A stretch of DNA of 33,023 nt, taken from NCBI GenBank assembly GCA_035295165.1, contig DATGJN010000028.1, positions 1-33,023 on the forward strand, read 5' to 3'. The translations under genes and the position numbers were made by a program. Under the pieces are notes generated by a model that ran no database searches, was not told the origin of the DNA, and was given only the letters and a program-made list of their open reading frames with translations. Below are positions 1-30,436 of this stretch, in pieces. Each line of letters starts with the position of its first letter. Within the stretch, counting starts at the first letter, position 1. Source of the stretch: a bacterium. GTDB taxonomy: Bacteria > Sysuimicrobiota > Sysuimicrobiia > Sysuimicrobiales > Segetimicrobiaceae.

Positions 1-1
1 A

Positions 2-85
2 GGGGAAGACGATCAGATACGGCCGTCGGGCGATGACGCCGGCGGCCGCGGGAGAGAAGAACAACAACAATGCGAGAGGTGGTGA
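2..85 (+). CDS. Possible C-terminal tail of an upstream gene (partial)
   Basis: An open frame enters from the left edge and stops at TGA 83-85, overlapping the next start by 16 nt. The tail would be hydrophilic and rich in Asp, Gly, Arg, Glu and Gln. Short overlaps of this kind are the rule between genes in this operon, which is the only support. There are too few residues to assign a family, and the stretch could equally be leader sequence. Confidence 0.25.
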   Translation, partial: GEDDQIRPSGDDAGGRGREEQQQCERW

Positions 86-630
86 TAACAGGCAAACACG
101 AAAGAGATTCACCCTCCACCGAACCGGGGCAGGCTCAGACGGCGCTGATTGCCACCCCGACATCAGACGCATTTGCCGCATTCGAGGCGACCCTGACGCC
201 TCCACAACGTACCCAATGGGCACCGATTAGGGCATCCATGGTGCAGCCCCAAGCCGCGCCATCGGCTGGCTCAAGGTCACATGGGAGCCTGGCCACCCCG
301 GCGCCGCTCCCGGCTTGGTTGTCGTGGCAGGTCCAGACAGAACAGAGCGGAGGCGGAACGCTCGTCTCCTACACGCTCCAAAACACCGGCCAGGTCACTG
401 TAGTGCTCGATCTAGCGCGACTAAAAGTGACAACATCAGCGGGGAGTGACGTCTCTGTGTCGCTTACCCGGCAGGACACAAGTGGATTGGAAGGCCGGAT
501 TCCGCCGGGAGGGGCCGAGTCAGGCGTGATCCGGGTCGGCCCTGCACAAGGGAAGGTTCTGATCTCATGGCCGGTGGTTACGGTAGGCACCAATGCCAAT
601 ACGTACCTCGTCTCCCAGACGATCCCGTGA
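70..630 (+). CDS. Small pilus-locus protein with QR helical motif and C-terminal beta domain
   Basis: This 186-residue protein of unknown function has an ATG at 70, downstream of a purine-rich stretch (gagagaag). An in-frame stop at 34-36 shows that it does not extend left. Residues ~34-56 form a helix-like segment with FAAFEATLTPPQR. Residues ~83-186 form a predicted beta-rich domain with SYTLQNT, an I-x-x-G-x-x-E-x-G motif and GKVLISW. The same two elements occur in the proteins at 7344-8432 and 15342-16538, so it is a shortened paralogue lacking their N-terminal domain. Unlike them it has no visible signal peptide. Its stop overlaps the GTG of the next gene. A role as an accessory pilus or envelope protein is inferred only from context. 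Confidence 0.7.
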   Translation: MREVVITGKHERDSPSTEPGQAQTALIATPTSDAFAAFEATLTPPQRTQWAPIRASMVQPQAAPSAGSRSHGSLATPAPLPAWLSWQVQTEQSGGGTLVSYTLQNTGQVTVVLDLARLKVTTSAGSDVSVSLTRQDTSGLEGRIPPGGAESGVIRVGPAQGKVLISWPVVTVGTNANTYLVSQTIP

Positions 631-1097
631 GCAAGTCGATCGAGAAGAAATTGAGCCCGAAGCTGGTGCGCGGACTGGACGTCTGCGGCCTGTGGCACCA
701 GAAATTCGAGGATCCACCTCACGGGCACTTCGCCAACGGCAAAGCTCGATTCACACGACCGCGCCCGTTCGACTACATCGCGGTCGCCCGTGGATACGCG
801 ATCGAGGTCAAAGCGACTCGCGGCACGTCGTTCGCGCTGCGGCCGCGCCAGGACAAGGAATTGGCGCGATTCGAGCGTCTCGGAGCCGGGGAAGCAGTGG
901 TCGCGGTGTTCACCCAGGACGGTCGCTGGTGGACACTTTGGTGGCTGCCGTATCGGGCGTACGCCGCGTTCCTGCGACGACGCCATCGGAAGTCATTCCC
1001 GGTCAAGGCACTCCTCGACCATGCTGTCCGGTGCGCCCGCGCCGACGGAGCATTCATCCCGCCCATTGGTGAGATTGAGGTGGCGCATGCGGGTTAG
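627..1097 (+). CDS. RecU/Hjc-like PD-(D/E)XK nuclease (possible Holliday-junction resolvase)
   Basis: The 156-residue product starts at GTG 627, which overlaps the previous stop (GTGA). The N-terminus is basic (SKSIEKKLSPKLVRG). The centre reads FDYIAVARGYAIEVKATRG, in which a D followed about 12 residues later by E-x-K matches the PD-(D/E)XK active site. It is followed by a basic/aromatic stretch and a Gln (RPRQDKEL), as in RecU and archaeal Hjc resolvases, which cut branched DNA. VVAVFT..GRWWTLWWLPY would supply later core strands. Family placement comes from motif reading by eye; other VRR or RecB-like nucleases are possible. It lies within the pilus operon, between a pilus-specific protein and two exported proteins, which suggests action on DNA taken up through the pilus, but this is inference. 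Confidence 0.65.
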   Translation: MSKSIEKKLSPKLVRGLDVCGLWHQKFEDPPHGHFANGKARFTRPRPFDYIAVARGYAIEVKATRGTSFALRPRQDKELARFERLGAGEAVVAVFTQDGRWWTLWWLPYRAYAAFLRRRHRKSFPVKALLDHAVRCARADGAFIPPIGEIEVAHAG

Positions 1098-1782
1098 CGG
1101 GATGCGAGTAGCAGCTCTCGGTGTGGCCGTGCTCGTCGTTGCCGCAATGGCTGCGACTGCGTGGGCGCAATTCCCCGCGGGGACGACAGCGGCGGTGTTG
1201 AGCTTTATCGACGCTGATGGAGGCCACGTGAGCGTGAACCGCCACTGGTACGGGGCTGGTGGGCAGGACACGCAGGTCTACCCGTTCACTCCGTACTTCT
1301 GGAACAGCTGCCTGCCGGGGGACGGAGCGATCATGACGCTCATCACGAGTCCGGTAGGGTACCCGCCGCCCGGGCTCACGAGCTCAGGCGCCTACACGAC
1401 CCAGTTCCTCGACAAACTCAGCCAGCAGATTACTCAAGGGCTGCAGTCCGCCTCACAGTCCCAGAGTGATCCGAAGTTGCAACAGATGATCGCTGGGATG
1501 AGGACGCCAGGGAATCCTGCCTACGAAGCCTTGAAGGTAGGGCTTGGGCAGGTGAATACCCTCAACTACTACGAGGACTACGGCTATGCGACGTTTCTCA
1601 TGATTAGGTGGGAGTGGAAATGGCCATTCCCAGGTTGCTATCCCACGATTGTGACCGTTCCAGAGGGTTATGGCATCCCGTTCGTCTCGCTGGTGCAGCA
1701 ACAGCAAGGAGATCAACAGGTGGCCGCCACACAGCCATTCTTACCGCTGCCAACAGCCGGAACTTGGGTGAGACGCCGATGA
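1087..1782 (+). CDS. Exported protein of unknown function
   Basis: The 231-residue product has a clear N-terminal signal peptide: MRVSGMRVAAL, a hydrophobic core, then ATAWA before QFPAG. ATG 1087 lies about 4 nt after gaggtgg and overlaps the nuclease gene by 11 nt; ATG 1102 is an alternative. The mature part is rich in Tyr, Trp, Pro and Gly (PYFWNSCLPGDG, YYEDYGYATFL, WEWKWPFPGCYP). It has a Gln/Ser-rich helix in the middle (residues ~105-130) and two Cys that could pair after export. I do not recognise a family. The gene ends in an ATGA overlap with the next exported protein, so the two are probably co-translated. Its place ahead of pilC suggests a surface, adhesin-like or minor pilus component. 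Confidence 0.7.
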   Translation: MRVSGMRVAALGVAVLVVAAMAATAWAQFPAGTTAAVLSFIDADGGHVSVNRHWYGAGGQDTQVYPFTPYFWNSCLPGDGAIMTLITSPVGYPPPGLTSSGAYTTQFLDKLSQQITQGLQSASQSQSDPKLQQMIAGMRTPGNPAYEALKVGLGQVNTLNYYEDYGYATFLMIRWEWKWPFPGCYPTIVTVPEGYGIPFVSLVQQQQGDQQVAATQPFLPLPTAGTWVRRR

Positions 1783-2291
1783 CCCGCTACCGGTTCGGTC
1801 TTTGTGTGACTGTGTTGATCATCTTGGCCGGGAGTATAGTGAGCGCTGCTCCAGCGTGGCCGGTCTACTACACGGCTGATGGAGTGGGCGTCAGTATGCC
1901 ACCGGACTGGAGTGTTGTAGTCTCCCCATCAGGGCTCTTGGTTATGGCGGGTCCAAAAGCCGCTTGGGGACGGCCCGTTGCGGCCGTCTCGGTGTTGACG
2001 GGACAAGGACAAGGCCAGCTACTCATGGACCGCGTGACCCCGATGGTCGGGGATCCCTCCCAACTTCGCTTGCTGGGGATACAGCAGCTCGCAGCTGACC
2101 GAGAGGCCAAGTACTATCTCCGGACCGGGAACGAGAAAACCGGTCAGGCGGAGGCCTACGTAATGATCGGGACGGTCTCGGGCCACAAGTTCAGCGCGGT
2201 GGTCGTCGGGATCGATCCGACCAGCGATCCCAACCTGCGGACCCGTGCCGGCGTCCTGCAAGCACTCCTCCTCCGACTCGTCCTTCCCTAG
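1779..2291 (+). CDS. Exported protein of unknown function
   Basis: The 170-residue product starts at ATG 1779 within an ATGA overlap. The first ~30 residues form a signal peptide (MTRYRFGL, hydrophobic core, VSAAPAWP). The mature protein begins with a beta-rich segment (YYTADGVGVSMPPDWSVV). Its later features include AWGRPVAAVSVLTG, AKYYLRTGNEK and GHKFSAVVVGIDP. The pattern YxxxxxGVxMxxPxxWxxx resembles small secreted proteins in which a peptide around a Pro-Asp-Trp motif folds as an alpha/beta domain, but I cannot name the family. The gene closes the block of non-core genes before pilC, with 42 nt in between. A pilus-accessory role is inferred from position alone. Confidence 0.65.
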   Translation: MTRYRFGLCVTVLIILAGSIVSAAPAWPVYYTADGVGVSMPPDWSVVVSPSGLLVMAGPKAAWGRPVAAVSVLTGQGQGQLLMDRVTPMVGDPSQLRLLGIQQLAADREAKYYLRTGNEKTGQAEAYVMIGTVSGHKFSAVVVGIDPTSDPNLRTRAGVLQALLLRLVLP

Positions 2292-2333: not shown

Positions 2334-3539
2334 ATGCCGAAAATTACCTATGTTGCCCTCACCCGCACTGGGGAGACCGTCAGTGGTGTAATGGAAGCCG
2401 TCTCGACCAGAGAGGCGTTGGCCCAGCTCCGTGAACGTGGGACGACGCCGCTGGACGTCACCGCTGGGATGTCGTTCCGGATTCACCGGCGCGTCAATCG
2501 CGCGCAAGCGGCCCAAGTGCTCCGCCGGCTCGCGACAGTCGTCGCTCGCGGTGGCGCTCCGTTGGCGGAAATTCTGCCGTCGTTGGTCGACGAAGAAGAT
2601 CTCCCGCATGTCCGAACCGTATTGGCAGGCGTGCGAGACTCGATCCTGCGAGATTCGCTCCCAATGAGCCGCGCGCTAGGCCGTTACCCCGAAGTATTCC
2701 CGAGCGTGGTGACCAGCCGTATTGCCGCCGGTGAAGCGGCAGGAGCGTTGGACAACGCGTTGGAGGACGCCGCGCTCTTCCTTGAGCAGGGCGTGCGCAC
2801 CCAGAGCCGGTTGATCGGCGCGCTATCGTATCCGATCGTGATCATCTCCTTGGCGCTCATTATCGTGTCGGTGCTGTCCGCGACAATCATGCCGCGGTTC
2901 GTGACGTTCTACGCGCAATCAGGAGTACCGTTGCCGCTCGTGACCCGGATCGTCGTAGGGTTCGGTCTCGCACTCGCTCACTGGTGGTTCTTGGTGATTG
3001 GGTTTGTGATCGGCGCGGGGTGGGGGGCGCGGCGTCTCTTGGCGCGCCAGGACGTTCGAGATCGGCTGGACTACATCCGGTGGAATCTGTGGGGGTGGCG
3101 GCGGGTCGAGCGCGCACTGGCGTGGAGCCGGTGGGCGCAGGCCATGACCATGCTGTATGCACAAGGGACCGAGATTCTTCATGCGCTCCAGTTGGCGTGC
3201 GACGCTTCAGGGACCGCGGTGATCCGAGATGTCTCGGATCTGCTGGTGCGCCGGATGAGCGAGCAAGGTCATCTACGTGAGGCCTTGGATGAAGCGGGAG
3301 TCTTCCCTCCGATTCTCCGTACATCGGTCGGGGTGGGAGAGCGCTATGGCACCATCCGAGAAATGTTGAGCGAAGCCGCTACCTGGTACTCAAGAGAAGC
3401 GGAGACGATTCTGGAGCAGTTGCCGAACCTGTTGCAACCGATAGCGGTAGTGATCGTCGGCGCCCTAGTAGGGTTCATGGTGTTAAGTCTCTACACGCCG
3501 ATGTTCAACATGTACGGCGTAATCAATCAGCTTCACTAA
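2334..3539 (+). CDS. pilC: Type IV pilus inner-membrane platform protein PilC (GspF family)
   Basis: PilC is the polytopic inner-membrane platform on which the PilB and PilT motors act and from which pilin is added or removed. The 401-residue length matches the family. Two repeated T2SSF domains are visible, each followed by a hydrophobic segment. Domain 1 covers residues ~60-190 (LRRLATVVARGGAPL, then SRIAAGEAAGALDNAL), with a membrane segment at ~163-185. A second membrane segment (~210-235) precedes domain 2 (WAQAMTMLYAQGTEIL, then SVGVGERYGTIREML), and a C-terminal membrane segment begins IAVVIVGALVGFMVL. The start is ATG 2334; GTG 2310 in the same frame would add 8 residues. It is followed after 34 nt by pilT. 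Confidence 0.95.
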   Translation: MPKITYVALTRTGETVSGVMEAVSTREALAQLRERGTTPLDVTAGMSFRIHRRVNRAQAAQVLRRLATVVARGGAPLAEILPSLVDEEDLPHVRTVLAGVRDSILRDSLPMSRALGRYPEVFPSVVTSRIAAGEAAGALDNALEDAALFLEQGVRTQSRLIGALSYPIVIISLALIIVSVLSATIMPRFVTFYAQSGVPLPLVTRIVVGFGLALAHWWFLVIGFVIGAGWGARRLLARQDVRDRLDYIRWNLWGWRRVERALAWSRWAQAMTMLYAQGTEILHALQLACDASGTAVIRDVSDLLVRRMSEQGHLREALDEAGVFPPILRTSVGVGERYGTIREMLSEAATWYSREAETILEQLPNLLQPIAVVIVGALVGFMVLSLYTPMFNMYGVINQLH

Positions 3540-3573
3540 GGTCTAATCGTCAATCAAAGTAAAGGTGGGGGCG

Positions 3574-4761
3574 ATGGCACGATCGACAACGCCATGGGGA
3601 ACAGATCTTGAGTCTGAGGAGTGGACCGGCCCAGATCTTGCCGACTCGCGAATTGTGGCATGGCTCCGTTACGGGCGAACGGTGGGCGCAAGTGATCTGC
3701 ACCTCAAGCCAGGAGCGCCACCTAATTTGCGGGTAACGGGCGCGCTCACCCCGATCGAGGGCGCCGCAGTGCTGACGGGGCAAGCGATCTCCGAGATGAT
3801 GGGATTGCTCGTAGGCGGCAAGGTGAGTTGGTCGGACTTCATGCTACAGCGACACGAACTCGACGTTGGGCTCGAGCCGGGAGGGGTTGGGCGGCTTCGC
3901 GTCAACGCGTTGTTCGACCGCGGCCAGCCTGCGGTCGCGATACGGCTGATCCCGCAGACGATCCCGGCGCTGGACACGCTCGGGCTACCAGCGATCACAA
4001 CGTCGCTAGTGCGCCGGCAAAAGGGGCTGTGGATCTTTACCGGGGCGACCGGGCACGGAAAGACGACCACTCAGGCGGCCATTCTAAGAGCTATCTTGAA
4101 CGACCGTCCCAGGCACGTCATCACGCTGGAAGACCCGATCGAGTACACCCACGAGCACGGTGGTGGATTGATCAGCCAGCGTGAAGTCGGCTGGGACACT
4201 GAATCATTCGAGCAAGGCATCGTGAGCGCGCTGCGTGAGGATCCCGACGTGATCCTGGTCGGTGAGATGCGAGACTTGGAGACGATCCGACAAGCGCTAC
4301 GCGCGGCTGAAACAGGCCACCTGGTACTAACGACACTCCATACAGTGGACGCATCCCTCGTTCCAGACCGCATCATCGACGTGTTCCCTGCGACGCAGCA
4401 AGCGCAGATTCGGATCCAGTTGAGCGATGTCCTTATGGCCGTGTACGCGCAGCAGCTGGTGCGGACCAACCGACCGGCGGAAGAAGGAGAAGCCCTCGAT
4501 CTCAGTGGGCGGATTGCTGCGGTCGAAGTGCTCTTGGGGCCGATGGCTGAACTGTACCCGGCGCGGGCGATGATCCGAACACCATCCGCAGGGACGTTGT
4601 ACACGTTGATGGAGCAAAGTCATCGCGCGGGCTGTCAGACAATGGAGCGGGCGCTGGTCGAACTGGTTGAGGCCGGGAAACTCACCGAAGCGGCGGCCCG
4701 GGAAGCCGCGATCCGGCGCGACACGTTCGATCGCCTTATGCAGGCAAAAGGGATGGCATGA
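3574..4761 (+). CDS. pilT: PilT-like pilus retraction ATPase
   Basis: This cytoplasmic hexameric ATPase drives pilus depolymerisation. The 395-residue product has the PilT N-terminal motif ASDLHLKPG and the stretch VAIRLIPQTIPALDTLGLP. It also has Walker A GATGHGKTT (about residues 157-164), the Asp box LEDPIEY, Walker B DPDVILVGEMRD and the His box TGHLVLTTLHT. The GEMRD form of Walker B is typical of PilT rather than PilB. The Walker A has His where PilT usually has Ser, a minor variation. ATG 3574 is preceded by aaaggtgggg; GTG 3565 would add three residues. The N-terminus has about 20 extra acidic residues. The gene overlaps the next prepilin gene by ATGA, so motor and pilins share a transcript. 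Confidence 0.95.
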   Translation: MARSTTPWGTDLESEEWTGPDLADSRIVAWLRYGRTVGASDLHLKPGAPPNLRVTGALTPIEGAAVLTGQAISEMMGLLVGGKVSWSDFMLQRHELDVGLEPGGVGRLRVNALFDRGQPAVAIRLIPQTIPALDTLGLPAITTSLVRRQKGLWIFTGATGHGKTTTQAAILRAILNDRPRHVITLEDPIEYTHEHGGGLISQREVGWDTESFEQGIVSALREDPDVILVGEMRDLETIRQALRAAETGHLVLTTLHTVDASLVPDRIIDVFPATQQAQIRIQLSDVLMAVYAQQLVRTNRPAEEGEALDLSGRIAAVEVLLGPMAELYPARAMIRTPSAGTLYTLMEQSHRAGCQTMERALVELVEAGKLTEAAAREAAIRRDTFDRLMQAKGMA

Positions 4762-5174
4762 AACGGCGGCGTGGTTCCACGCTAATCGAAGCGCTGATGG
4801 CGGCCGTAATCGTGGCCGTAATTGGCGGGCTCGTGGTGATCGCGCTGGCGGAGGCGGGCCAAGCAGGCCAGCGCGCTATGGTGGCTGCACAGGCGCGCCG
4901 GGTGCTACAGCAGGAACTCGAGCAGGCTCGGAGCGGCCGCGGAGTCCCGACGAGTGGGACAACGGGGCCATTCACGGTTACGGTAACGACGTCGACGAAT
5001 ATCCAGCCGGCCATGATCGGCGGACCGTGGACGCCGGACTGTTACGGGGGTAGCCCATGCAGCAACGGCATCACGACAAGCACAATGTACGCGCTCACAT
5101 ATGTGAAGGTCGTCGTTAGTTACACGGCCGACGGGACGGTGGTGGCGAGTGGAACGACTACGACTCCTCCATAA
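4758..5174 (+). CDS. Minor prepilin-like protein (class III signal)
   Basis: The 138-residue product has the short basic leader MKRRRG, then STLIEALMAA and a ~25-residue hydrophobic helix. This is the prepilin peptidase site (cleavage after Gly6, Glu5 of the mature protein present). The first mature residue is Ser rather than the usual Phe/Met, as in some minor pilins. The C-terminal part is Thr/Gly/Ser-rich and beta-like, with two Cys (DCYGGSPC) that could form a small disulfide loop. The start overlaps the pilT stop. It probably forms part of the tip or initiation complex together with the next four proteins, in the manner of the PilV/PilW/PilX or GspH-K sets. Confidence 0.85.
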   Translation: MKRRRGSTLIEALMAAVIVAVIGGLVVIALAEAGQAGQRAMVAAQARRVLQQELEQARSGRGVPTSGTTGPFTVTVTTSTNIQPAMIGGPWTPDCYGGSPCSNGITTSTMYALTYVKVVVSYTADGTVVASGTTTTPP

Positions 5175-5937
5175 GGCTCAACGTGGGCAGGCACTCCTCG
5201 GCGCTTTGATCGTCGTCGTGATCCTTGGTGTTCTGACGGCCTCCTTGACGACGTTGGCGATCGAAGGTCAGCAGGCGGGTACAGTGGCGCGGGATCAATT
5301 GACGGCCCAATCCATTGCCGAGACCGGGATCAATGCTGGGCTGGCGACGGTGCAGGCGACATCCCAGAACGCGTTTACGAACAACTTATTCACGGTGACG
5401 AAGAGTTATGCGCAAACATGGGTGACCGGGGTGGGGTCACCGTGTAGCGCGAGCTCCGTTGCGTACAACATCGGGGACATGTTCTATCACTACTTCCCAT
5501 TCACACCCTCGGCCGGACAACCCATTATCAACACGATTCAAAGGAGCTCTCCGCCAGCATCGGGGAATTGGATCCGGCTTTGGGATGCCGTGGCGGGCCC
5601 CGGCGGGCAGACGTATACGTGGGAAGTGCAAGCGGGCATCGAAGGCGTTGGATCTCCGTGCCCAACGTGGAACGACAACGGTTCGCAGACCATCATGATG
5701 TACCCGATTGGCGCGTACGCGTTCGCGTGGGTATGGGGACCGCAGGGCCAGGTGCTCGGGGAAATGACCGAATACACGCCGTCAGCGACTCCTGGCTACG
5801 TGGTGATGACGTACACGGACTGCCCAGCGTACTACCAACCGTCAACGTGCAACTATCCGACCGCGGTGCAGGTCGCAATCCCGGCCGGCGAGCTTCTCTG
5901 GGACGACCCCAATGTGTCGACGCCTACAGAGCCGTAG
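5149..5937 (+). CDS. Large minor prepilin-like protein (PilX/GspK-type)
   Basis: This 262-residue protein starts at GTG 5149, inside the end of the preceding gene (26-nt overlap). The leader MERLRLLHKAQRG is followed by QALLGALIVVVILGVLTASL, a type IV pilin-like signal whose mature residues begin Q-A-L and lack Glu5. Lack of Glu5 is a known feature of the tip-type pseudopilin GspK and of some PilX proteins. The large soluble domain is rich in aromatic residues and has five Cys. Its size and missing Glu5 suggest the tip or priming pseudopilin, but this rests on analogy. The neighbours on both sides are prepilins. Confidence 0.8.
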   Translation: MERLRLLHKAQRGQALLGALIVVVILGVLTASLTTLAIEGQQAGTVARDQLTAQSIAETGINAGLATVQATSQNAFTNNLFTVTKSYAQTWVTGVGSPCSASSVAYNIGDMFYHYFPFTPSAGQPIINTIQRSSPPASGNWIRLWDAVAGPGGQTYTWEVQAGIEGVGSPCPTWNDNGSQTIMMYPIGAYAFAWVWGPQGQVLGEMTEYTPSATPGYVVMTYTDCPAYYQPSTCNYPTAVQVAIPAGELLWDDPNVSTPTEP

Positions 5938-6421
5938 AGGGTTCGTCCTCGCTGAGTTACTCATTGTGGTCGCGATCTTGGCGATTATCGCCGCGATCGG
6001 GATATCAGGTTTTGTCCGGTCGCAAGAAGCGGGGACGCTCCGGCAGGGCGAGATGCAAACGGCGGCGATTCTCCGGGACGCTATCGTGCGCGCGGATGCT
6101 CCAGACGCAGCGGCATCAGGCGGAATCCAGGCGCAGATCGTCTTCGCCGCGGGGAGCGCGACCGTGGCGGAACAGATTCAGACGAACGGAGGAGGATGGG
6201 TCAACGTGACGCCGGCGGGGGCCAGTCTACAGCTCCCGGCGGGGGTCACGGTCCAAAGCACGACATGGACGGGGAACACCGCTCAAGTGAATCCTGGAGA
6301 TACCAGCACGGGGACGTACGAAGCATATCACACGACCGTGGCGGGGTCGGTTACCTTGACGACCACGCACGGCATGACGGCAACGGTGTACGTTACCGGA
6401 GCCGGTACTGTGTGGTACTAA
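5912..6421 (+). CDS. Minor prepilin-like protein
   Basis: The 169-residue product starts at ATG 5912 and overlaps the previous gene by 26 nt. The leader MCRRLQSRRG ends in Gly, followed by FVLAELLIVVAILAIIAAIGISGF, so cleavage site, Phe1 and Glu5 are all present. The rest is Ala/Gly/Thr-rich with a beta-repeat texture and lacks Cys. It resembles GspH/FimT- or PilE-type minor pilins. I see no sequence feature that decides which position in the pilus it occupies. Confidence 0.85.
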   Translation: MCRRLQSRRGFVLAELLIVVAILAIIAAIGISGFVRSQEAGTLRQGEMQTAAILRDAIVRADAPDAAASGGIQAQIVFAAGSATVAEQIQTNGGGWVNVTPAGASLQLPAGVTVQSTTWTGNTAQVNPGDTSTGTYEAYHTTVAGSVTLTTTHGMTATVYVTGAGTVWY

Positions 6422-6442
6422 AGGAAGAAGTGGAGGATCCCG

Positions 6443-6886
6443 ATGCGACGGCAGAGAGCGTTTACGCTCGTGGAAACGATCATCGCGATGGGGGTCGTGC
6501 TCATCCTTGGTGCGATTGCTTACGCGTCGTACGCGGGGATCGAGGCGCAGAGCCGCGATAAGGCTGGCGTCTCGATAGCCGACGGGGTAGCACAAAACCT
6601 CGGGCACTATGCCGCGCTCAACGGTGGATTGTATCCGACGGGGCGGACATCGGCGTCGTGGGCAACAATTATGGGCGATCTTGGGACGCTGGCCGAGTAC
6701 AGCGCCACCGCTCCGACGACATTCACGGGATCAGGCGGTTTCCTCGTGTACGATACGGCCGGGAACACGTTCCAGATCGAGTTCTGGGCCAGCGGCGGGT
6801 CTGGCGCGGTGTACTGCCGCACGCCGAATGGACTGGCGCAGATCACGAAGCAGAATAGTGATGGCCCGTGGACGGGCTGCCCCTAA
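6443..6886 (+). CDS. Prepilin-like protein (Ala at the cleavage site)
   Basis: The 147-residue product follows gtggaggatcccg and ATG 6443. The leader MRRQRA is followed by FTLVETIIAMGVVLILGAIAYASY, giving Phe1 and Glu5, but the residue before the cut is Ala, not the usual Gly. A compact C-terminal domain contains FLVYDTAGNTFQIEFWASGG and two Cys (VYCRTPNG and WTGCP at the C-terminus). This layout, with a disulfide near the C-terminus, resembles the GspG/PilE type. It is close in design to the next gene and to pilA at 10354, suggesting tandem duplication and divergence. Confidence 0.85.
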   Translation: MRRQRAFTLVETIIAMGVVLILGAIAYASYAGIEAQSRDKAGVSIADGVAQNLGHYAALNGGLYPTGRTSASWATIMGDLGTLAEYSATAPTTFTGSGGFLVYDTAGNTFQIEFWASGGSGAVYCRTPNGLAQITKQNSDGPWTGCP

Positions 6887-6899
6887 AGTGGATGGTTCC

Positions 6900-7334
6900 A
6901 TGAGACGTCGGCAGGCATTCACCCTGGTCGAGCTGATCGTGACGCTCGCGATCGTGGTAATTCTCGCAGCGATCGCGATTCCGGTGTACAACACCGTCCA
7001 AGCGCAGGCACAGATCAAAGCGGATATCGCGGAACAGAACGTGTTGGTCCAAGCGCTTTCCTCGTACTACGCGGTCAATGGCTGCTATCCGAACGGACCG
7101 CGCGGGACAGGCAATATGCCCACGAACCTCGGCCCGTACGTCGGCAATACGTGGCCCGGTAATATGACGTACGTGACATTCATGAATGGTGGCTGGGTCA
7201 ACTCGAGTAGCGGTGCGGTGAATTACGTGGGGGTCCTCGCTAACAGTGTGCTCACGCAGTCGGGGTCGTGGACCGGCGGCACGGCAGTGTTTAATGGCGT
7301 GTCTACGGGCGCCACAGTACTGGAGTGCCCGTAA
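6900..7334 (+). CDS. Prepilin-like protein (Ala at the cleavage site)
   Basis: The 144-residue product is called from ATG 6900; an in-frame GTG at 6888 would add four residues. The leader MRRRQA is followed by FTLVELIVTLAIVVILAAIAIPVY, a textbook pilin helix with Phe1, Glu5 and Pro22, again with Ala before the cut. After the helix comes LVQALSSYYAVNGCYPNGP, the alpha-helix-to-loop pattern of GspG-like major pseudopilins. A second Cys lies three residues from the end (LECP), so one C-terminal disulfide is likely. It follows the preceding prepilin gene by 13 nt. Together with pilA (10354) it is one of the two proteins most like a major subunit. Confidence 0.85.
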   Translation: MRRRQAFTLVELIVTLAIVVILAAIAIPVYNTVQAQAQIKADIAEQNVLVQALSSYYAVNGCYPNGPRGTGNMPTNLGPYVGNTWPGNMTYVTFMNGGWVNSSSGAVNYVGVLANSVLTQSGSWTGGTAVFNGVSTGATVLECP

Positions 7335-7343
7335 GGGATCGGC

Positions 7344-8432
7344 ATGATGACACAGACGGTAGGTGAGGGCATGAAGAGAGTCTGGACAACCTTGGTTATT
7401 CTAGTCATCGCTGGGGGCCCCATCGCCGTCCAGGGGACCGGAGCGATGGCGCAGCCGAACCAGACTAGGCTGGTCTTACTCTCGGAGGCGACACAAACGC
7501 CGGTACCGGTCGCGTTGGCCGTAGGACAACCAGTTGTAGTCCGGATTGACGGTCGAACGCCCACAACGGTGGCGACAACCCCTCCAGAGATCGTTGACGC
7601 CATTTTGCGCGAGGGAGAGATCCTCCTTATCCCGCTGCACGAAGGGCAAACGATGCTCTCGATCGGGATTGGAAACGGTGTGAACGCAAAACTGGCCTTG
7701 GCTGTTGGAACCGCAGACGGCGTTCGTTTGATCACGCTTAGCGAGAACGTTTCGGCGACACAGGCGGCTGCGACGGCTCCAACCACGTCAGCCAGTGGCG
7801 CGAATATCGAGACATTTGTGTCGGGACTGTCAGACTCCCAGCGGCAAGCCTTGATCACGTATCTACAAGCGCCTTCGTTGTCGACCTTGAGTGTGTTGGT
7901 CCAGTCTCTGAATACGGCCCAGCAGCAGACGTTGGTGGATGTATTGGCAAATCGGGACGCGCTTGCTGGGACATTGCTGCAAGCACAAGGTGGAGAACCT
8001 GGGCCGGTAATGGCAGCTCCTGCACCGGCGATGGCAGGCCCGATCCACAGCGTTGTACCAGTAACACCAGTGGTCCCGTCGGCGCCTCGGCCGCAAGCGG
8101 AGCCTGGTGTAACTGTTAACGCTCCTTCGGGTATCGTGGTCCACGTGATCCAGACGAACACCAAGGGCGTGCTGTACTTGAGTTACGTGCTCCAGAATAC
8201 TACCAAAACGGGCGTGCAGGCAGACCCGCATGAGATCCAGGTCGCCGGTGCGCGCGGCCCCGTGACGGTCCGGCAGATGGATATCGGTACTCCGAGCGAG
8301 ATCGCGGCCGGCAGTATGGAAACCGGCATCATCGCACTCGTCCCGGACGGCGGGAAAGTGAATGTCACGTGGGGGCTGAGAGACGCTAACGGAAACGCCT
8401 TGACCGTCGAGGTCTCCATCGCAATAAAGTAG
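7344..8432 (+). CDS. Secreted two-domain protein: CpaC-N-like domain, QR helical repeats, C-terminal beta domain
   Basis: This 362-residue protein has a signal peptide (KRVWTTLVILVIAGG...GAMAQ). ATG 7344 follows aaggga; ATG 7371 (MKRVW) is an equally good start. Residues ~50-135 include VAVGQPVVVRIDG, PPEIVDAIL and EGQTMLSIGIG. This resembles the N-terminal domain of CpaC/RcpA-type secretins, where a short beta domain binds near the pore. Two helical repeats follow (ETFVSGLSDSQRQAL and SVLVQSLNTAQQQTL), then a Pro/Ala linker. A ~100-residue C-terminal beta domain holds SYVLQNT, IAAGSMETGII and GKVNVTWGL. The C-terminal half is shared with the proteins at 70-630 and 15342-16538. A periplasmic partner of PilQ is a reasonable inference. 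It is the last gene before the terminator. Confidence 0.75.
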   Translation: MMTQTVGEGMKRVWTTLVILVIAGGPIAVQGTGAMAQPNQTRLVLLSEATQTPVPVALAVGQPVVVRIDGRTPTTVATTPPEIVDAILREGEILLIPLHEGQTMLSIGIGNGVNAKLALAVGTADGVRLITLSENVSATQAAATAPTTSASGANIETFVSGLSDSQRQALITYLQAPSLSTLSVLVQSLNTAQQQTLVDVLANRDALAGTLLQAQGGEPGPVMAAPAPAMAGPIHSVVPVTPVVPSAPRPQAEPGVTVNAPSGIVVHVIQTNTKGVLYLSYVLQNTTKTGVQADPHEIQVAGARGPVTVRQMDIGTPSEIAAGSMETGIIALVPDGGKVNVTWGLRDANGNALTVEVSIAIK

Positions 8433-8514: not shown

Positions 8515-10290
8515 CTATGAAACCGGGGGGATTACCTCTGGAAGCTGATCATCAACCTCTGGAATGGCCGTGTCCACCTCTTCTGGCACGTCTTCGCTGG
8601 TCTCTTCCGGTGTCCACGTAGCCCGCATAACCTCGCTGAGCGTGGTCTCGCCGGCTCGGACATGCAGTACGCCATCAGAGAGAAGCGTTGGGGTCTGAGT
8701 CCAGAGGCGGAGGTCTTGTTCGGTCGTCTGATCAGTAAGGCGCCCCCGCGCCTTCGGCGTCATCACCATCAACTCACCGATAGCCAGTCGACCCCGATAT
8801 CCACCGTAGCAGCGCTCGCAGCCGTCTCCGCGCATTTCCGTATTTGCGAGCCCTAGCCGGTTCGCTAACTCGAGCTCGGCCCCTTCGTACGCGACAGGCC
8901 GCGCACACCCAGCGCCCGCCCCGGCGTTGGAAGGGGCACAGATCCGCCGGAGGAGCCGCTGGCCAAGCACGGCTTGGAGGGTGTCCGCTAGTAGGTGGGC
9001 CTCAACGCCCATGTGCATAAGCCGAGGGACCGCGCCCGGAGCCGTATTGGTGTGGAGCGTACTCAACACCAGGTGCCCGGTGAGCGCGGCATCGACGGCG
9101 ACGGTCGCGGTTTCTTTGTCGCGAATCTCACCGACCATGATCACGTCCGGGTTCCGCCGGAGGAAGCTGCGCAGCATGAGCGCAAACGTTCGTGAACGAT
9201 GGGCTTCCAAGACGCGGTCGTCCACAGACGTTTGAATGATCCCAGGGATCTTCTGTTCCACTGGGTTTTCCACAGTGTAGATGAACTTATCGGGGAACCG
9301 TTGATGGATACGACGTAGAAGCACAGCGAGGGTAGTAGATTTGCCACACCCCGTGGGGCCGGTGACCAGAACGAGGCCGTGAGGAAGCGTGCACAATTGG
9401 TCGAGTTGATCATGGATAGCAGACGTAAAACCCAGGTCATCAAGTTCTTGGTGCGCGATGTGGCCGAAAATCCTGACGACGGCGTCCTCGCCGCGGTCGT
9501 CAGGACCGACCTCGATCCTAAGGTCATATTTCGGGTTCTCGGGGCTCGGCCAGCGCATGTCGCCGGACTGTGGAGTCTGGTGGTGCGCGATGTCACGGCG
9601 GGCAAGGAGCTTGATGCGACTGATGAGCCCGGCCAAGTGGCGGCGTTGGAACCGTACGCCGGGCGTGCCCTTACCGTCAACTCGGTAGCGCGCTTCACCG
9701 ATGCCCTCACCGAAATCGGCGATGTGAATATCGCTGGCGCCCATGGCGATCCCGCCGTCGATGATGTCGCTGAGCAGACGGACGATGTGTGGGGCCGCAG
9801 TGAGTTCGCTCAGGTCCTGCTGGAGGTTCGTCACCGTCAGAGTCGCGATCTCGTCGTCAAGGGCATCGGCCGGAGGAGGAAGCCGATCCTGGGTAACAAC
9901 CACGATCTCGGCGCGCCGCGGCCGGATAGCCGTGGCAATCTCGTCCCGAAGCTGAAGCGTAGGGTCGGCCACGGCCACAACCACTGATTGAGGGGTCACT
10001 TCAAGCACGGCACAGCGGCCGCTCCGCCGTAGGTCCGCCGGGAGGGCATCGCCGAGGCGGGGGTCCGGAGCTGCCGTCAGTTCACGGAACTCGAGTCCGA
10101 CACGCGCGGCGCGCGCCCGGGCCAGATGGGTGGGGTGGAGCCATCCTCGAGCGATCAGCGCCTGCAGTGGGTCCTCGGTGTCTAGTCGCTCCGCTTCATC
10201 CCATTGTTCGACGGTAATGTACTCGCGGCCGATAAGGATGTCACGAAGGGATCGTCCAAGATCGCCGTTGGCAGAAGAGTGTGGGCTCAT
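8515..10290 (-). CDS. pilB: PilB/GspE pilus extension ATPase
   Basis: This cytoplasmic motor powers pilin polymerisation. The 591-residue product has an N-terminal MshEN/T2SSE_N-type region (~1-140) and the motif GASDIHI (~184-190). Walker A is GPTGCGKST (311-319), Walker B is PDVIMVGEIRD (381-391) and the His box is TGHLVLSTLHTN (404-415). Two oddities stand out. The Asp box reads VENPVEQ where EDPxE is usual, so its Asp is Asn. The zinc-binding tetracysteine is present as C451, C462, C491 and C494, with the first pair 10 residues apart instead of two. The C-terminus carries a ~30-residue acidic/Pro tail. It lies downstream of pilA on the same strand. The start has no adjacent Shine-Dalgarno sequence. 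Confidence 0.95.
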   Translation of the reverse strand: MSPHSSANGDLGRSLRDILIGREYITVEQWDEAERLDTEDPLQALIARGWLHPTHLARARAARVGLEFRELTAAPDPRLGDALPADLRRSGRCAVLEVTPQSVVVAVADPTLQLRDEIATAIRPRRAEIVVVTQDRLPPPADALDDEIATLTVTNLQQDLSELTAAPHIVRLLSDIIDGGIAMGASDIHIADFGEGIGEARYRVDGKGTPGVRFQRRHLAGLISRIKLLARRDIAHHQTPQSGDMRWPSPENPKYDLRIEVGPDDRGEDAVVRIFGHIAHQELDDLGFTSAIHDQLDQLCTLPHGLVLVTGPTGCGKSTTLAVLLRRIHQRFPDKFIYTVENPVEQKIPGIIQTSVDDRVLEAHRSRTFALMLRSFLRRNPDVIMVGEIRDKETATVAVDAALTGHLVLSTLHTNTAPGAVPRLMHMGVEAHLLADTLQAVLGQRLLRRICAPSNAGAGAGCARPVAYEGAELELANRLGLANTEMRGDGCERCYGGYRGRLAIGELMVMTPKARGRLTDQTTEQDLRLWTQTPTLLSDGVLHVRAGETTLSEVMRATWTPEETSEDVPEEVDTAIPEVDDQLPEVIPPVS

Positions 10291-10353: not shown

Positions 10354-10875
10354 TTACTTGCACGTGACGCCGACGGTCGTCGGCGTTCCGGCCGCTCCGA
10401 GATCGACAGTTCCGTGGATCGGGTCCATGCAGAGCACATGGGTATTGCCGCCGGTGGCCTGGGCCACAATTGTGAACGTGGCTGGCGTCGTGGTATTGAT
10501 CGGCTCGTACGTCCAACTCGATGTGATGATGTTTGCCGCGGCCGTGGTGGGCGGCAAGTTGCTGGCGCCCGCGGTGGCAAGGTCGGTCACAAGGCCGGCC
10601 CAACTAGTCGCGCCGGTATTGGCTGTCGCGGCGACGTTCGCTGAATCGGTCGGGAACGCGCCAGTGGCTGACGCGGACTCGGAGGAGATCATCCCCGTGT
10701 ACACCTGCTGCATCAGTTCATCCAGAGCTGCCGTTCTCGCGTTGGCGACCTGGCCGATGTATGTTGCGTAGGCGACGGAGCCTAGGATGAGAACGACCGC
10801 CATAGCGACAACGAGCTCGATCAGTGTAAAGCCACGACGCCGGTCATGCAGGCGCCGACTCAACAGCTGGAACAT
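10354..10875 (-). CDS. pilA: Type IV pilin, probable major subunit
   Basis: The 173-residue prepilin has the leader MFQLLSRRLHDRRRG, then FTLIELVVAMAVVLILGSVAYATYIG. Cleavage Gly, Phe1 and Glu5 are all present. The soluble domain is Ala/Thr/Ser-rich, and the last third holds two Cys (HVLCMDP and GVTCK), giving the C-terminal disulfide loop typical of type IVa pilins. It has the best ribosome site among the prepilin genes (GGGAGGTG at 10880-10887 on the minus strand), its own upstream region and a hairpin before pilB. All three fit a strongly expressed major subunit. The assignment as major subunit is inferred; the proteins at 6443 and 6900 are alternatives. Confidence 0.9.
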   Translation of the reverse strand: MFQLLSRRLHDRRRGFTLIELVVAMAVVLILGSVAYATYIGQVANARTAALDELMQQVYTGMISSESASATGAFPTDSANVAATANTGATSWAGLVTDLATAGASNLPPTTAAANIITSSWTYEPINTTTPATFTIVAQATGGNTHVLCMDPIHGTVDLGAAGTPTTVGVTCK

Positions 10876-10887: not shown

Positions 10888-10956
10888 ACGTAGCCCGGCG
10901 AAATGGGTGAAGCGAATGGGTGCCGGACGGTACGCATGCAGATACGGTAGCAGATC

Positions 10957-11008
10957 CTCTTAAGGAAGGGGGAGACAACCTACGCTATGGGAGGTTGTCT
11001 CCTAAGAG
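10957..11008. promoter_or_regulatory. Large bulged inverted repeat in the pilA-pilM divergent region
   Basis: An 11-bp perfect inverted repeat (10971-10981 with 10992-11002, ggagacaacct) surrounds a 10-nt loop. Outside it, a further 6 bp pair (10957-10962 with 11003-11008, ctctta/taagag), leaving an 8-nt purine bulge on the left arm only. It lies between the divergent pilA and pilM starts, so it can act on either transcript or bind a dimeric regulator. It lacks a following T run, so a terminator is less likely. Confidence 0.6.
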
Positions 11009-11020
11009 CAAATGGGACTG

Positions 11021-11029
11021 TGGTACGGT
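11021..11029 (+). promoter_or_regulatory. Possible extended -10 promoter (TGGTACGGT) of pilM
   Basis: TGn followed by TACGGT (11024-11029) ends 7 nt before the pilM ATG, the geometry of a leaderless transcript. There is no Shine-Dalgarno sequence for pilM, which fits, but no convincing -35 either. Confidence 0.3.
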
Positions 11030-11036
11030 CATAGAC

Positions 11037-11885
11037 ATGGTTGGTATCGATTTGAGCCTTTCCCCGATCATCTGGGCCGCGCCCTCGAGGCGTGGCATGG
11101 TCCACGGCACCCTCGAGCGGCCGGATCCGGAGGCGCTAACGGAGGCCCTCCGGGTCGCCGATGTGCGCGATCGTATGATTGCGCTAGCCGTCCCCACGCG
11201 GGACGTCCGCATCGGCATGCTGGCCAAAGGATTAGTGGGAGCCCGAGCACGGCGCGCCGCGACGTTGGCGGCTGCCCAGCAATTGCGGATCGACCCGGCC
11301 GTGGTCGCGGTGAGTCTCGACCATCATGGCAGTGAAGGCACGGCGTATGTTGCCGCGCCGACGGACACCGTCGCCAAGTGGGTGGCGCCGTGGTCGGCGG
11401 ATCGGTGGCGCGTCTCAGTGGTGGAGCCGGCGGGGACCGCGCTGTTGAGGGAGGCCGGGAGAGACACCGTGGAGTTGTTTGTCCGGACGGGGGCAGGAAC
11501 GCTCGATGTGGTGGTCGGGAGCCGGACTCGATGGGTCCTGGCCCGCACTGTCGATCTCGATTGGGAACACAACCTGCCGAGCGCGCGCGTGGAGGTGGAA
11601 GACACGATTACGCTCGTCCGCAAAGTAGGGGTGGAGTTGGGCGGGCTTGTCGTCGGCGGCGCCGGAGCAGCGGGGATCTTAGCAGACGCGCTCTCCACGC
11701 TTGGGACTATCCGGCCACTTATGGTTGGGGCAGGACTGGATGCCGATCTGCCACCAGAAGCACTCGTGGCGGCATCGGTAGCGCAGTGGGACCGCCAGCG
11801 ACGCAGCCAAAAAGGGCTAGGGTGGAGCGATAGGATGCCGGGGCTGACGCGGCTGTGGCGGCGGAGGCGATCGAATGCGGCATAA
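11037..11885 (+). CDS. pilM: PilM-like actin-fold pilus assembly ATPase
   Basis: PilM is a cytoplasmic FtsA/actin-like protein that binds the N-terminus of PilN and links the motor to the alignment complex. The 282-residue product begins MVGIDLSLSPIIWA, the phosphate-1-like strand of the actin fold. It also contains GGLVVGGAGAAGILADAL, resembling the late glycine-rich nucleotide loop. It is short for the family (about 350 residues) and the middle is divergent, so nucleotide binding is uncertain. The assignment rests strongly on its position immediately before pilN-pilO-pilP-pilQ. ATG 11037 is chosen because homologues start at M-x-G-I-D; the open frame continues upstream to GTG 10920 but would read through the inverted repeat. 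It overlaps pilN by 11 nt. Confidence 0.8.
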   Translation: MVGIDLSLSPIIWAAPSRRGMVHGTLERPDPEALTEALRVADVRDRMIALAVPTRDVRIGMLAKGLVGARARRAATLAAAQQLRIDPAVVAVSLDHHGSEGTAYVAAPTDTVAKWVAPWSADRWRVSVVEPAGTALLREAGRDTVELFVRTGAGTLDVVVGSRTRWVLARTVDLDWEHNLPSARVEVEDTITLVRKVGVELGGLVVGGAGAAGILADALSTLGTIRPLMVGAGLDADLPPEALVAASVAQWDRQRRSQKGLGWSDRMPGLTRLWRRRRSNAA

Positions 11886-12396
11886 CTTGATAGTTCGTGA
11901 CACGACGCGGCCCATCGCGATCGTCCTGTGGGCGCTCGTAGCGCTCGTCTCAATGCTGACGGTGGCTCAGGCGATGGCTGTTCGGAACGAGGTGCACACG
12001 TTGCGCCTCATTGTGAGCGCCGCGCAGGCTCGGGTCACGCAGTTACAGGCTCGGGCTGCAGAGGCTGACGCACGGGTGGCTCCGTTCCAACAAGCGAGTG
12101 AAATCGCCGCACAACTCGGGATGGATACCATCGAGCCTACGATGTTGCGGCAGGTCGAGCCGCAGGTCCCGACAGACATTTGGTTTACGGACGTCACGAT
12201 GAGCCGCGATACGATCGGGGTCGATGGTCGCGGGCTGTCACTTGAAAGTATCGCCAAAACAGCAGAAGTGCTGCGAAATACCGCCGGGATCGCGTCGGTG
12301 CAGGTCACGGTTGTCACGAAAGCCGTGGAGGGCTGGTATAGCTTCCATATCGTTGCCCACCCGCAATCGCCATCGAAGGGAGGCCCGCGACCATGA
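11875..12396 (+). CDS. pilN: PilN-like alignment protein
   Basis: The 173-residue protein has a short cytoplasmic N-terminus (MRHNLIVRDTTRP), one membrane helix (~14-36), a coiled coil rich in Ala, Gln and Arg (~38-70) and a C-terminal ferredoxin-like beta-alpha-beta region (IWFTDVTMSRDTIGVDGRGLSLESIAKTAEVL in broken form). This is the PilN layout. The usual INLLP motif that binds PilM is not obvious; HNLIV may substitute. PilN and PilO form the inner-membrane dimer connecting PilM with PilP and PilQ. ATGA coupling to pilO (4-nt overlap) suggests tightly matched translation. Confidence 0.8.
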   Translation: MRHNLIVRDTTRPIAIVLWALVALVSMLTVAQAMAVRNEVHTLRLIVSAAQARVTQLQARAAEADARVAPFQQASEIAAQLGMDTIEPTMLRQVEPQVPTDIWFTDVTMSRDTIGVDGRGLSLESIAKTAEVLRNTAGIASVQVTVVTKAVEGWYSFHIVAHPQSPSKGGPRP

Positions 12397-12989
12397 AACG
12401 GCGCCTCCTGTGGTGGGTCCCGCTATTGCTAGCCGTACTGGTGGGGGCCGGCGGCCATATGTTGTTGATCGGCCCGGTTCAGCGGGACATCGGGAAGCTC
12501 CGGCTACAGCTTGGCGCGTTGCAGGCCCAGCAGATCCAAGCGGAAGCGCGGATTACCAGAGACACGCGTGTAGAGCAGGTCCCGTTGCCGATTAGCGACT
12601 CGGGGTTAGACCGCGTTTGGCCAGGGCTTGCGAAAGACGTTGAAACTCATGGGTATACGGTCCAACTCCTGTCATTCGTTCCCGGGATCTCTGGCCGGAC
12701 GCGTACCCTGACGCTGACCTTGCGGCTGACCGGCTCGTACCTGGCGATGAACGACACACTCATCACGATCAATAAAATGATCCCGTTGTGGAGCTGGCGC
12801 ACCCTCGAAGTTCAGTCGCAGACGGGGACGGACGTTACGGTGGTCGCTACCGGGGTGCTGCCATTGACCGGAGCCCCGGTAGTGGGGGTTGGAACGGCTC
12901 CGACACAACCAACGCAGCCGGGGCAGCAGGGGCCCACGCCTCCGCCTGCTCCTCCATCGCGACAGGCACCCGGAGGTCCACGTCCATGA
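12393..12989 (+). CDS. pilO: PilO-like alignment protein
   Basis: This 198-residue bitopic protein has a membrane helix at ~5-27, a coiled coil ~30-55 (DIGKLRLQLGALQAQQIQAE) and a periplasmic ferredoxin-like domain (~60-160). The domain includes LTLTLRLTGSYLAMNDTL, the strand-helix transition conserved in PilO. The tail after ~165 is unusually rich in Pro, Gln and Gly, and is longer than in most PilO proteins. It is predicted to heterodimerise with the preceding PilN. The gene sits between pilN (ATGA overlap) and the PilP-like gene (ATGA overlap). Confidence 0.8.
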   Translation: MKRRLLWWVPLLLAVLVGAGGHMLLIGPVQRDIGKLRLQLGALQAQQIQAEARITRDTRVEQVPLPISDSGLDRVWPGLAKDVETHGYTVQLLSFVPGISGRTRTLTLTLRLTGSYLAMNDTLITINKMIPLWSWRTLEVQSQTGTDVTVVATGVLPLTGAPVVGVGTAPTQPTQPGQQGPTPPPAPPSRQAPGGPRP

Positions 12990-13591
12990 AGAACAATACG
13001 TTGCGCCGGGCTGCAATTGGGCTCGTAACCTTAGCCATGGTGGGAGTCATTGTGCGACCTCAAGGAGTACTCGGTCAGTTGGCCGGGCAAACTTCTGGAG
13101 GGGCAGCACACACGACTACCGCCCCCGTTCCAGCTACTCGACCAAGCGTGGGGGCTCCAGTCACAACGGGGCGGCGTGACCTGTTCGCGCCACCGCCTGG
13201 GGTGGCAACGGGCGCGCACGCAGGCAGCACGGGTGCCGCAGTACCGTCGATGCCAGGGCCACAGATCGGGTCCATCTCTCTTCCGCCACTTCCGGGAGCC
13301 GTAGGGATCGGCCCCGCGTCGGCCCCACCGGCGCTTTCTGGCCAAGGAGGGCAGGGGACGCCAACAGCTCCCACCATCGAATTGCGCGGGGTCGCTCTCG
13401 GACGTACACCACAGGCGGTGCTGGTATCCGGTGGGACATACGCGATTGTCACGGTAGGGCAGAAGACGGATTGGGGCACGGTGACAGGCATTACCGCTAC
13501 GACGGTTACCCTTAGGATGGATAGCGGGTCGCGTACACTAAGGTTCGAGACACCACATCCAGCAGCAACGACACAGACGGGGAGCCACTAA
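12986..13591 (+). CDS. pilP: PilP/GspC-like periplasmic linker protein
   Basis: The 201-residue product has a basic N-terminus, a hydrophobic signal or anchor (~8-30) and a long low-complexity Pro/Gly/Ala/Thr linker (~35-120). A C-terminal HR-like beta domain (~125-190) reads IELRGVALGRTPQAVLVSGG, IVTVGQKTDW and TVTLRMDSGSRTLRF. The motif RRDLFAPPPG early in the linker matches the xDPF segment that precedes HR domains in PilP and GspC. There is no lipobox Cys, so it is probably anchored by its signal helix rather than as a lipoprotein. PilP joins the PilN/PilO complex to PilQ. The stop overlaps the pilQ start by 1 nt (TAATG). Confidence 0.7.
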   Translation: MKNNTLRRAAIGLVTLAMVGVIVRPQGVLGQLAGQTSGGAAHTTTAPVPATRPSVGAPVTTGRRDLFAPPPGVATGAHAGSTGAAVPSMPGPQIGSISLPPLPGAVGIGPASAPPALSGQGGQGTPTAPTIELRGVALGRTPQAVLVSGGTYAIVTVGQKTDWGTVTGITATTVTLRMDSGSRTLRFETPHPAATTQTGSH

Positions 13592-15330: not shown

Positions 15331-15341
15331 GAGGCGGGCGC

Positions 15342-16538: not shown

Positions 16539-16548
16539 CGTAACCACC

Positions 16549-17388
16549 ATGATGTGGGCGGAAGCACTGGTGATCGGCGCGCTCGGTGGCGCCGCCGCGG
16601 ACTGGATCGCCGCTCGCGGAGCTGGGACCCAGGCGACACGCAGGTCGATGCTGATCACGGCGCTGATCGGTGCCGCGGTAACCGCATTGATCGTAACGCA
16701 TGGGGCACGCGGCTGGCACGCGTGGCTTCTCCCGTTGTGGCTGTGGGGTTGGATCCTTGCAGCCGACGCCGACCTCCGGACCCAGGAACTGTACGATGCG
16801 GACACGTTTGGCTTACTCGCGCTCGCGCTGATCGCGGGGCTGGCCGACCACATCATCCTGGTCGCGCTGGCCGGCGCGGTCGCAATGGCGGCGATCTGGC
16901 TGATCGTTCGTGGCGGGCTCCGGTGGTGGACGTGGCGCGCTTCCGTAATCTTGGCCGGTGTGGGCGCGGTCGTCGCGATCGTCGCCCGTTACCATCTGAC
17001 CGTCGTACAGGCGCAGCTCGCACCCCCAACCAGAGCTATCGTGTACGGAACCATGGCGCACGCTTGGACGGCGGCCATGATATGGATGGTTGTCGGTGCC
17101 GCCGTGGTCGCGCTGGCCCCGGTCCTGGGGTGGATGGGGACGATCAGCCGCCGGGCCCATGGGCCCGATGAGCAGGTCGGTGGGGCCGACGTGCTCCTGT
17201 GGGCCGCGATCGGCGCCTGGTTCGGGCTGCGGTGGGTGTGGCCGGTTGCTGGGGCAGCCGTGATCGCGCTGGCGCTCGTGGCCGGCGCGCAAGTACTGGC
17301 TCGGAAGCGTGGATGGCACCTACCGTGGGCGCCTGAGGGCCTGCCGATCGCTCCGGTGTTGTTCGTGTTGCTGGTGTTTGCATCCTAA
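16549..17388 (+). CDS. pilD: Type IV prepilin peptidase (A24 family), single-domain
   Basis: This polytopic aspartyl protease cleaves the leaders of the prepilins listed above. The 279-residue product has about seven or eight hydrophobic helices. The first catalytic motif is ADLRTQELYD (Asp75, with Asp83 at the PD position) and the second is GGADVLLWAAIGAWFG (Asp214). The canonical second motif is G-x-G-D-x-K; here it is G-G-A-D-V-L, so the third Gly and the Lys are replaced. The N-terminal methyltransferase domain with its CxxC zinc site is absent, so it is closer to the short TadV/archaeal-type enzymes, and pilin N-methylation would need another protein. It lies between a pilus protein and spoVS in the same operon. 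Confidence 0.85.
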   Translation: MMWAEALVIGALGGAAADWIAARGAGTQATRRSMLITALIGAAVTALIVTHGARGWHAWLLPLWLWGWILAADADLRTQELYDADTFGLLALALIAGLADHIILVALAGAVAMAAIWLIVRGGLRWWTWRASVILAGVGAVVAIVARYHLTVVQAQLAPPTRAIVYGTMAHAWTAAMIWMVVGAAVVALAPVLGWMGTISRRAHGPDEQVGGADVLLWAAIGAWFGLRWVWPVAGAAVIALALVAGAQVLARKRGWHLPWAPEGLPIAPVLFVLLVFAS

Positions 17389-17407
17389 GAACGATGGAGG
17401 CCAGGAC

Positions 17408-23742: not shown

Positions 23743-23776
23743 CACGCTCGGGGGCTGTTTCGGAGGTGTTGGTTCC

Positions 23777-24274: not shown

Positions 24275-24367
24275 ACCCCGGGCTTTTTGAAAGTTCGCTG
24301 CGTTCACTCAAGAACGCCTACGACGATCGAGTCGTAGGACTTGCGTGGTGGTAAAGTGCACTACAAG

Positions 24368-28653: not shown

Positions 28654-28656
28654 GAG

Positions 28657-30090: not shown

Positions 30091-30092
30091 GA

Positions 30093-30389: not shown

Positions 30390-30436
30390 TCCGGACTCTG
30401 CCCGGCAGATATTGGGATGTACCCAACGCGTCGAAG

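Follow-up and report, generated by a model that had tools for sequence, protein, structure and literature searches.

Plasmid transformation in B. subtilis requires RecU, which localises to the competence pole (available part of PMC2727465), and in Haemophilus the resolvase DprB, which overlaps RuvC, is co-transcribed with dprA (available part of PMC5817196). In these excerpts, the Haemophilus dprABC operon resembles the locus described here in that it likewise supplies a second resolvase beside RuvC, tied to a transformation gene. PAPI-1 moves via a type IV pilus of its own encoding (excerpt of PMC5297154), and the pilus genes of IncI plasmids and PAPI-1 likewise lie on an element transferred by conjugation (excerpts of PMC5297154 and PMC9045228); these excerpts describe no resolvase in the pilus module, and the element considered here is inferred from fragments. 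Within the portions of the literature covered by our search, no description was found of a resolvase within a type IV pilus operon or of an exchangeable pilus-linked slot. The sequence-only reading of this DNA had regarded a link between uptake and recombination as one not commonly encoded within a single operon; the functional link is already familiar from RecU and DprB in the excerpts above, whereas the pilus-linked module and the swap of resolvases reported below are unusual in the portions covered.

The stretch of DNA analysed, referred to as the window, is 33,023 bases long and begins at the start of the 33,023-base contig C28 of genome G000 (4.79 Mb, 121 contigs). The genome is assigned to the family Segetimicrobiaceae of the Sysuimicrobiota (CSP1-3), a phylum of one order and five families in the available part of PMC11604079.

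The nuclease gene and the adjoining pilus locus

The gene under study, NUC, begins with GTG and encodes 156 aa (Table 1). Its first 4 bases (627-630) lie within the upstream ORF 70-630 and its last 11 (1087-1097) within the downstream gene g1087; g1087 and g1779 in turn overlap by 4 bases, and pilC starts 42 bases past g1779. The codon-position G+C of NUC (0.68/0.50/0.75) resembles that of pilC (0.65/0.47/0.73) and likewise that of pilT, indicating that NUC is coding. The PD-(D/E)XK-type ORF that had been read as overlapping its neighbours on both sides is therefore real. It had also been placed inside the pilus operon: NUC is co-directional with the type IV pilus operon and adjoins it directly upstream, but two genes separate NUC from pilC.

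Table 1. Coordinates of the module and pilus genes in the window (G000) and of the corresponding module genes at locus L048 on contig C11 of a second genus (G005)
Feature	Coordinates	Strand	Evidence
Repeat or assembly joint	1-137		100% identity to starts of C78, C79 and C105 over 136-140 bases
Pilus-locus-protein paralogue, 3' part, true start lost	138-630 (called 70-630)	+	46% identity to 363-aa G005 protein
NUC, RecU/Hjc-type PD-(D/E)XK resolvase-like	627-1097	+	phrog_843 match; D49, E60, K62
g1087, exported-looking (by eye)	1087-1782	+	Paralogues between VirB6/TrbL and VirD4/TraD genes
g1779, module partner protein, no family named	1779-2291	+	38% identical to G005 counterpart
PilC/GspF inner-membrane protein	2334-3539	+	PF00482 (T2SSF) 1e-35; 47% identical to G005 C8
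PilT-family ATPase	3565-4761	+	TIGR01420 (pilT_fam) 1.9e-101, above cut-off
Five pilin-like genes (4758-5174, 5149-5937, 5912-6421, 6443-6886, 6900-7334)	4758-7334	+	Collinear with G005 C8
Pilus-locus protein, paralogue of the module's first gene	7344-8432	+	Identity comparison
PilB/GspE assembly ATPase	8515-10290	-	TIGR02533 6e-100, TIGR02538 4e-88, both under equivalog cut-off
Pilin-like protein	10354-10875	-	49% identical to G005 C8
PilM/N/O/P-like to prepilin peptidase block	10920-17388	+	Collinear with G005 C8
PilQ secretin	13591-15330	+	TIGR02517 4.6e-50, under cut-off
Paralogue of the module's first gene	15342-16538	+	Identity comparison
Prepilin peptidase, weak	16549-17388	+	PF01478 E=0.018, under cut-off
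G005 homologue of the upstream gene, full length	L048 6568-7659
G005 slot protein	L048 7668-8180		phrog_1770 match
G005 homologue of g1087	L048 8177-8848		56% identity
G005 homologue of g1779	L048 8848-9387		38% identity

The type IV pilus locus spans 2334 to about 17,400. N_methyl matches were obtained with the first three of the five consecutive pilin-like genes, the cut-off being passed by the first alone. The PilM/N/O/P-like genes carry names assumed from gene order.

The only significant family match of NUC was phrog_843 (Holliday junction resolvase; PHROGs), which covers residues 39-141 (E=1.1e-6). When the 43 genomes of the phylum were searched with this model, NUC was recovered at 3.1e-6 and no other protein matched. 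The curated resolvase models all scored under their cut-offs: Pfam RecU (PF03838; E=0.0023, 18.3 of 25 bits), Pfam Hjc (PF01870; E=0.01, 16.2 of 21.1 bits), NCBIfam RecU (NF002583; E=0.12, 12 of 330 bits) and NCBIfam Hjc (NF040854; E=0.017, 14.9 of 70 bits). The top PHROGs, Pfam and NCBIfam matches were nevertheless all resolvases, bar one weak endonuclease family, and ten controls (nine shuffles of NUC and its reversed sequence) matched no resolvase family, with a best E of 0.017. With a small RecU model derived from a pair of PDB segments, NUC ranked second of 2001, one shuffle standing higher; an Hjc model run over 61 genomes at E<=0.01 gave four matches, none of them in G000, the genome of NUC.

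The stretch FDYIAVARGYAIEVKATRG contributes D49, E60 and K62, which we take to be the metal-binding residues by analogy with the roles of the RecU residues. They fall in the region that aligns with the D..E-A-K of RecU; the E-x-K of NUC lies a few columns off that of RecU in the MAFFT alignment and is gapped in the HMM alignment. A single-sequence AlphaFold2 model of NUC was unusable (pLDDT 37). Searches for relatives returned none among 74 pattern stretches in the genome contig collection, none among 8 and 58 stretches in viral contigs, and none in phages, plasmids or PDB sequences by protein search.

The best reading of the NUC sequence, as had been proposed, is a divergent RecU/Hjc-type Holliday-junction-resolvase-like protein, based on the phrog_843 match and the sub-cut-off Pfam RecU and Hjc scores, and the gene product most likely cuts branched DNA. 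NUC shares with RecU and the phage RecU type (phrog_843, PF03838) a profile match over residues 39-143 and the T-S-F and R-K-S motifs. It differs in being about 39 residues shorter ahead of the first D, in falling under the Pfam and NCBIfam cut-offs and in its context: recU is found in a penicillin-binding-protein operon, and NUC lies outside any such operon. DprB, which is of the YqgF type, belongs to a different family and lies outside a pilus operon. The idea, taken from the available part of PMC8878592, that NUC is secreted and acts on DNA junctions outside the cell was rejected because its N-terminus, by eye, is unlike a signal peptide.

A module with an exchanged resolvase

NUC occupies the second position, or slot, of a four-gene module that is present in both G000 and G005 in the order pilus-protein paralogue, slot gene, g1087 and g1779. 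The four genes at L048 are collinear with the four in the window, and the G005 slot gene follows its upstream neighbour after an 8-base gap. The search for relatives of NUC did not recover the G005 slot protein. This protein matched phrog_1770 (Holliday junction resolvase, RuvC superfamily) at E=8e-34 and did not match Pfam RuvC. Its relatives were found in 82 viral stretches, 80 of which were retained as loci, and in 102 phage records, several of which are annotated as RuvC or Holliday junction resolvase. Of the 80 viral loci, 79 realign; in these, E70 is present in 70/79, D149 in 79/79, and D9 in all 72 that cover that position. The fold was predicted from 19 sequences with a pLDDT of 90.9, and the best solved matches of the model were ZmMOC1 with Holliday junctions (E=1.5e-14, TM 0.83), followed by bacterial RuvC. 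The G005 slot protein thus has the predicted RNase-H resolvase fold and the catalytic D, E and D of the MOC1/RuvC superfamily, the fold and key residues being those of the MOC1 chloroplast resolvase and phage RuvC (phrog_1770), whereas the family that NUC resembles has an unrelated fold.

The comparison shows that the slot holds two proteins that are resolvase-type by sequence, of different families and, judged by family, of different folds. An unrelated Holliday junction resolvase at the same place in G005 makes the evidence for function much better than the NUC sequence alone would. Ordinary RuvC was detected in 38 of 43 genomes, including 28 of the 28 good ones; it lies on C117 in G000 and on C24 in G005, so that the slot resolvases are extra in both genomes.

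The first gene of the module is incomplete in the window. Its called start lies within the repeat or assembly joint at bases 1-137, so its N-terminus and start are untrustworthy, and its homology to the 363-residue G005 counterpart begins only at residue 21, which indicates that this upstream neighbour has been cut, either truly or by assembly. The ORF is 24-29% identical to the two pilus-locus paralogues at 7344-8432 and 15342-16538. The 137 bases gave no Rfam match and no plasmid match, and the whole G000 genome held no copies beyond the contig starts listed in Table 1. A different sequence follows the 137 bases in each contig, as at the end of an insertion element or in an assembly artefact.

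Distribution and mobile-element context

NUC was found in one of the 61 relatives searched, which is one of the 43 phylum genomes included among them. Conservation of the gene beside pilC, which the sequence-only reading had put forward as a check, does not hold: the gene order is unique to one genome of the 61, an outcome that this reading had itself named as refuting, and in G005 the resolvase module and pilC lie on different contigs. Searches for PilC and g1087 covered 18 of the 61 relatives. A PilC/GspF relative was present in 17 of the 18, with only that of G005 close (47%, 364 bits; the rest <=188 bits), and a g1087 relative in 12 of the 18, that is, all 12 genomes of the window's family. 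g1779 was detected in 3 of 43 genomes, strongly in G000 and G005 and weakly in G021 (4e-4); only G000 and G005 have both a strong g1779 match and the close pilus form, and the module comparison covers these two genomes. Weak matches of the first module gene in two further genomes were rejected: G036 has a similar gene and no module, and G004 has a broken pilus-locus remnant. The G004 remnant (L171 6585-7954) consists of a PilT C-terminus, one pilin start and a gene of the 7344 type.

In G005, contig C11 carries, to about 42 kb, VirD4/TraG, TrbL-like and TrbI-like genes (the latter two weak), VirB4/TraC, an actin-like protein and a sigma factor. The order is a stretch of conjugation genes, then the module, an excisionase-like gene, a tyrosine integrase and transporter-type genes; the excisionase, SSB, XseA, ParB and transporter readings in G005 were made by eye. 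No repeats were found near the integrase, and a 95-base tRNA-Thr call, the one tRNA candidate there, lies inside a regulator ORF and was rejected as unconvincing. Ahead of the pilus locus on contig C8 are a PD-(D/E)XK nuclease, a helicase with an intein, DnaG primase, RecT, uracil-DNA glycosylase, ribonucleotide reductase, MazG, a DnaN/RecA fusion and a sigma factor. From these gene contents, C8 and C11 would be separate contigs of one conjugative or integrative element. The G005 context suggests a mobile element of the conjugation type no less strongly than it suggests competence. Side observations were made on the G005 pilus contig and upstream of its pilus locus: RecA is joined in one protein to an N-terminal fragment of the DNA polymerase beta clamp (L049 1674-2951), the helicase is interrupted by the intein (L178 2812-5535), and a TnpB/Cas12f-like IS605 protein is encoded at L178 10256-11440.

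Copies of g1087 elsewhere in the family lie in the order VirB4/TraC-TraG, a 354-residue protein, VirB6/TrbL (weak), g1087 and VirD4/TraD (seven neighbourhoods). The g1087 relatives (L050, L052-L062) occur in 12/12 family genomes, and a conserved conjugation-type secretion operon was seen in those examined.

In G000, G+C is 0.61-0.63 over the module and pilus and 0.57-0.59 at the right end, whereas 337 sampled 5-kb stretches have a median of 0.68; the low G+C, together with the type III restriction genes downstream of the pilus, fits an acquired island. The remainder of the window (17400-33023), where G+C is lowest, is a restriction/defence-like island with a type III restriction enzyme and methyltransferase, a further methyltransferase, a GHKL-ATPase-like protein and an MkoA-like helicase; in the analysis of that island NUC had no PADLOC match. 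No counterpart to the rest of the G005 element was found in 110 stretches of G000 amounting, with small overlaps, to about 1.85 of 4.79 Mb. Outside the window, the matches in this sampling were scattered, with one to three proteins in any one stretch, and included a secretion operon on C49 and a second pilus/secretion locus on C113.

Role of the slot resolvases

We consider it probable, at about 0.6, that NUC is an extra, dedicated Holliday junction resolvase in the accessory module of a horizontally acquired type IV pilus/DNA-transfer element, in a slot that can be filled by unrelated resolvases, of the RecU/Hjc-like PD-(D/E)XK type in G000 and of the MOC1/RuvC-like RNase-H fold in G005. NUC would be made together with the pilus genes and would dimerise on four-way or other branched DNA, which would arise as the element, or DNA transferred by it, replicates and recombines. 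With metal bound at D49, E60 and K62 it would nick the junction symmetrically, acting in parallel to the chromosomal RuvC.

A substantial minority chance goes to NUC as the housekeeping resolvase of a mobile element, serving only the replication and recombination of that element alongside RecT, RecA, primase and SSB, with its proximity to the pilus a matter of packing and of no functional link. C8 and C11 of G005 do carry primase, RecT, RecA, integrase and conjugation genes (SSB by eye), the G005 resolvase adjoins the excisionase-like and integrase genes and not pilC, and resolvases are common in phages, as the 102 records matching the G005 enzyme illustrate; both genomes, however, keep the resolvase amid the same three partners, one of them a pilus-protein paralogue, and not with recombination genes. 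The sequence-only reading had instead proposed that NUC processes DNA imported by the pilus; as a competence resolvase, NUC would resolve or limit the recombination of free DNA that the pilus brings in. ComEC, DprA and ComEA are absent among the genes noticed in the window, the pilus is patchy and island-like, and the adjacency of NUC to pilC is confined to one genome, so we hold a competence resolvase to be unlikely, even with a PilT-type ATPase and a secretin in the locus and with the precedents, in the excerpts available, of RecU at the competence pole and in plasmid transformation (PMC2727465) and of DprB co-transcribed with dprA (PMC5817196). Action of NUC on pilus-imported DNA is possible.

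The weak Pfam and RecU scores and the type III restriction genes downstream would suit either a DNA-binding protein that is inactive or some other PD-(D/E)XK nuclease, of the kind that serves restriction or defence. We judge this quite improbable, given that the top PHROGs, Pfam and NCBIfam families are resolvases bar the one weak endonuclease family and that the counterpart in the G005 slot is a clear resolvase. It is more improbable still that two resolvase genes arrived independently in the same intergenic spot as cargo without a function in the module. Two genomes, a mobile-looking locus and a contig that begins at a repeat would allow it, yet both slot genes run on the strand of their neighbours with start/stop overlaps or an 8-base gap, and both encode resolvases, even though a genome normally has a single ordinary RuvC and a random gene would very rarely be a resolvase.

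That G005 fills the same slot with a structurally unrelated enzyme of this kind hints that the genes linked to the pilus require a junction-cutting enzyme of their own. We suggest only tentatively that the pilus-bearing DNA-transfer elements of this phylum have a purpose-built resolvase slot, in which the four-gene module would pair a Holliday junction resolvase, itself interchangeable, with a pilus/secretion protein, and that DNA moved by the machine may be processed at the machine and not by RuvABC. Recombination is usually studied apart from the uptake or transfer of DNA, as a step with genes of its own. If the proposal is true, a pilus gene that travels with swappable, unrelated resolvases would point to selection for junction cutting within the transfer machine.
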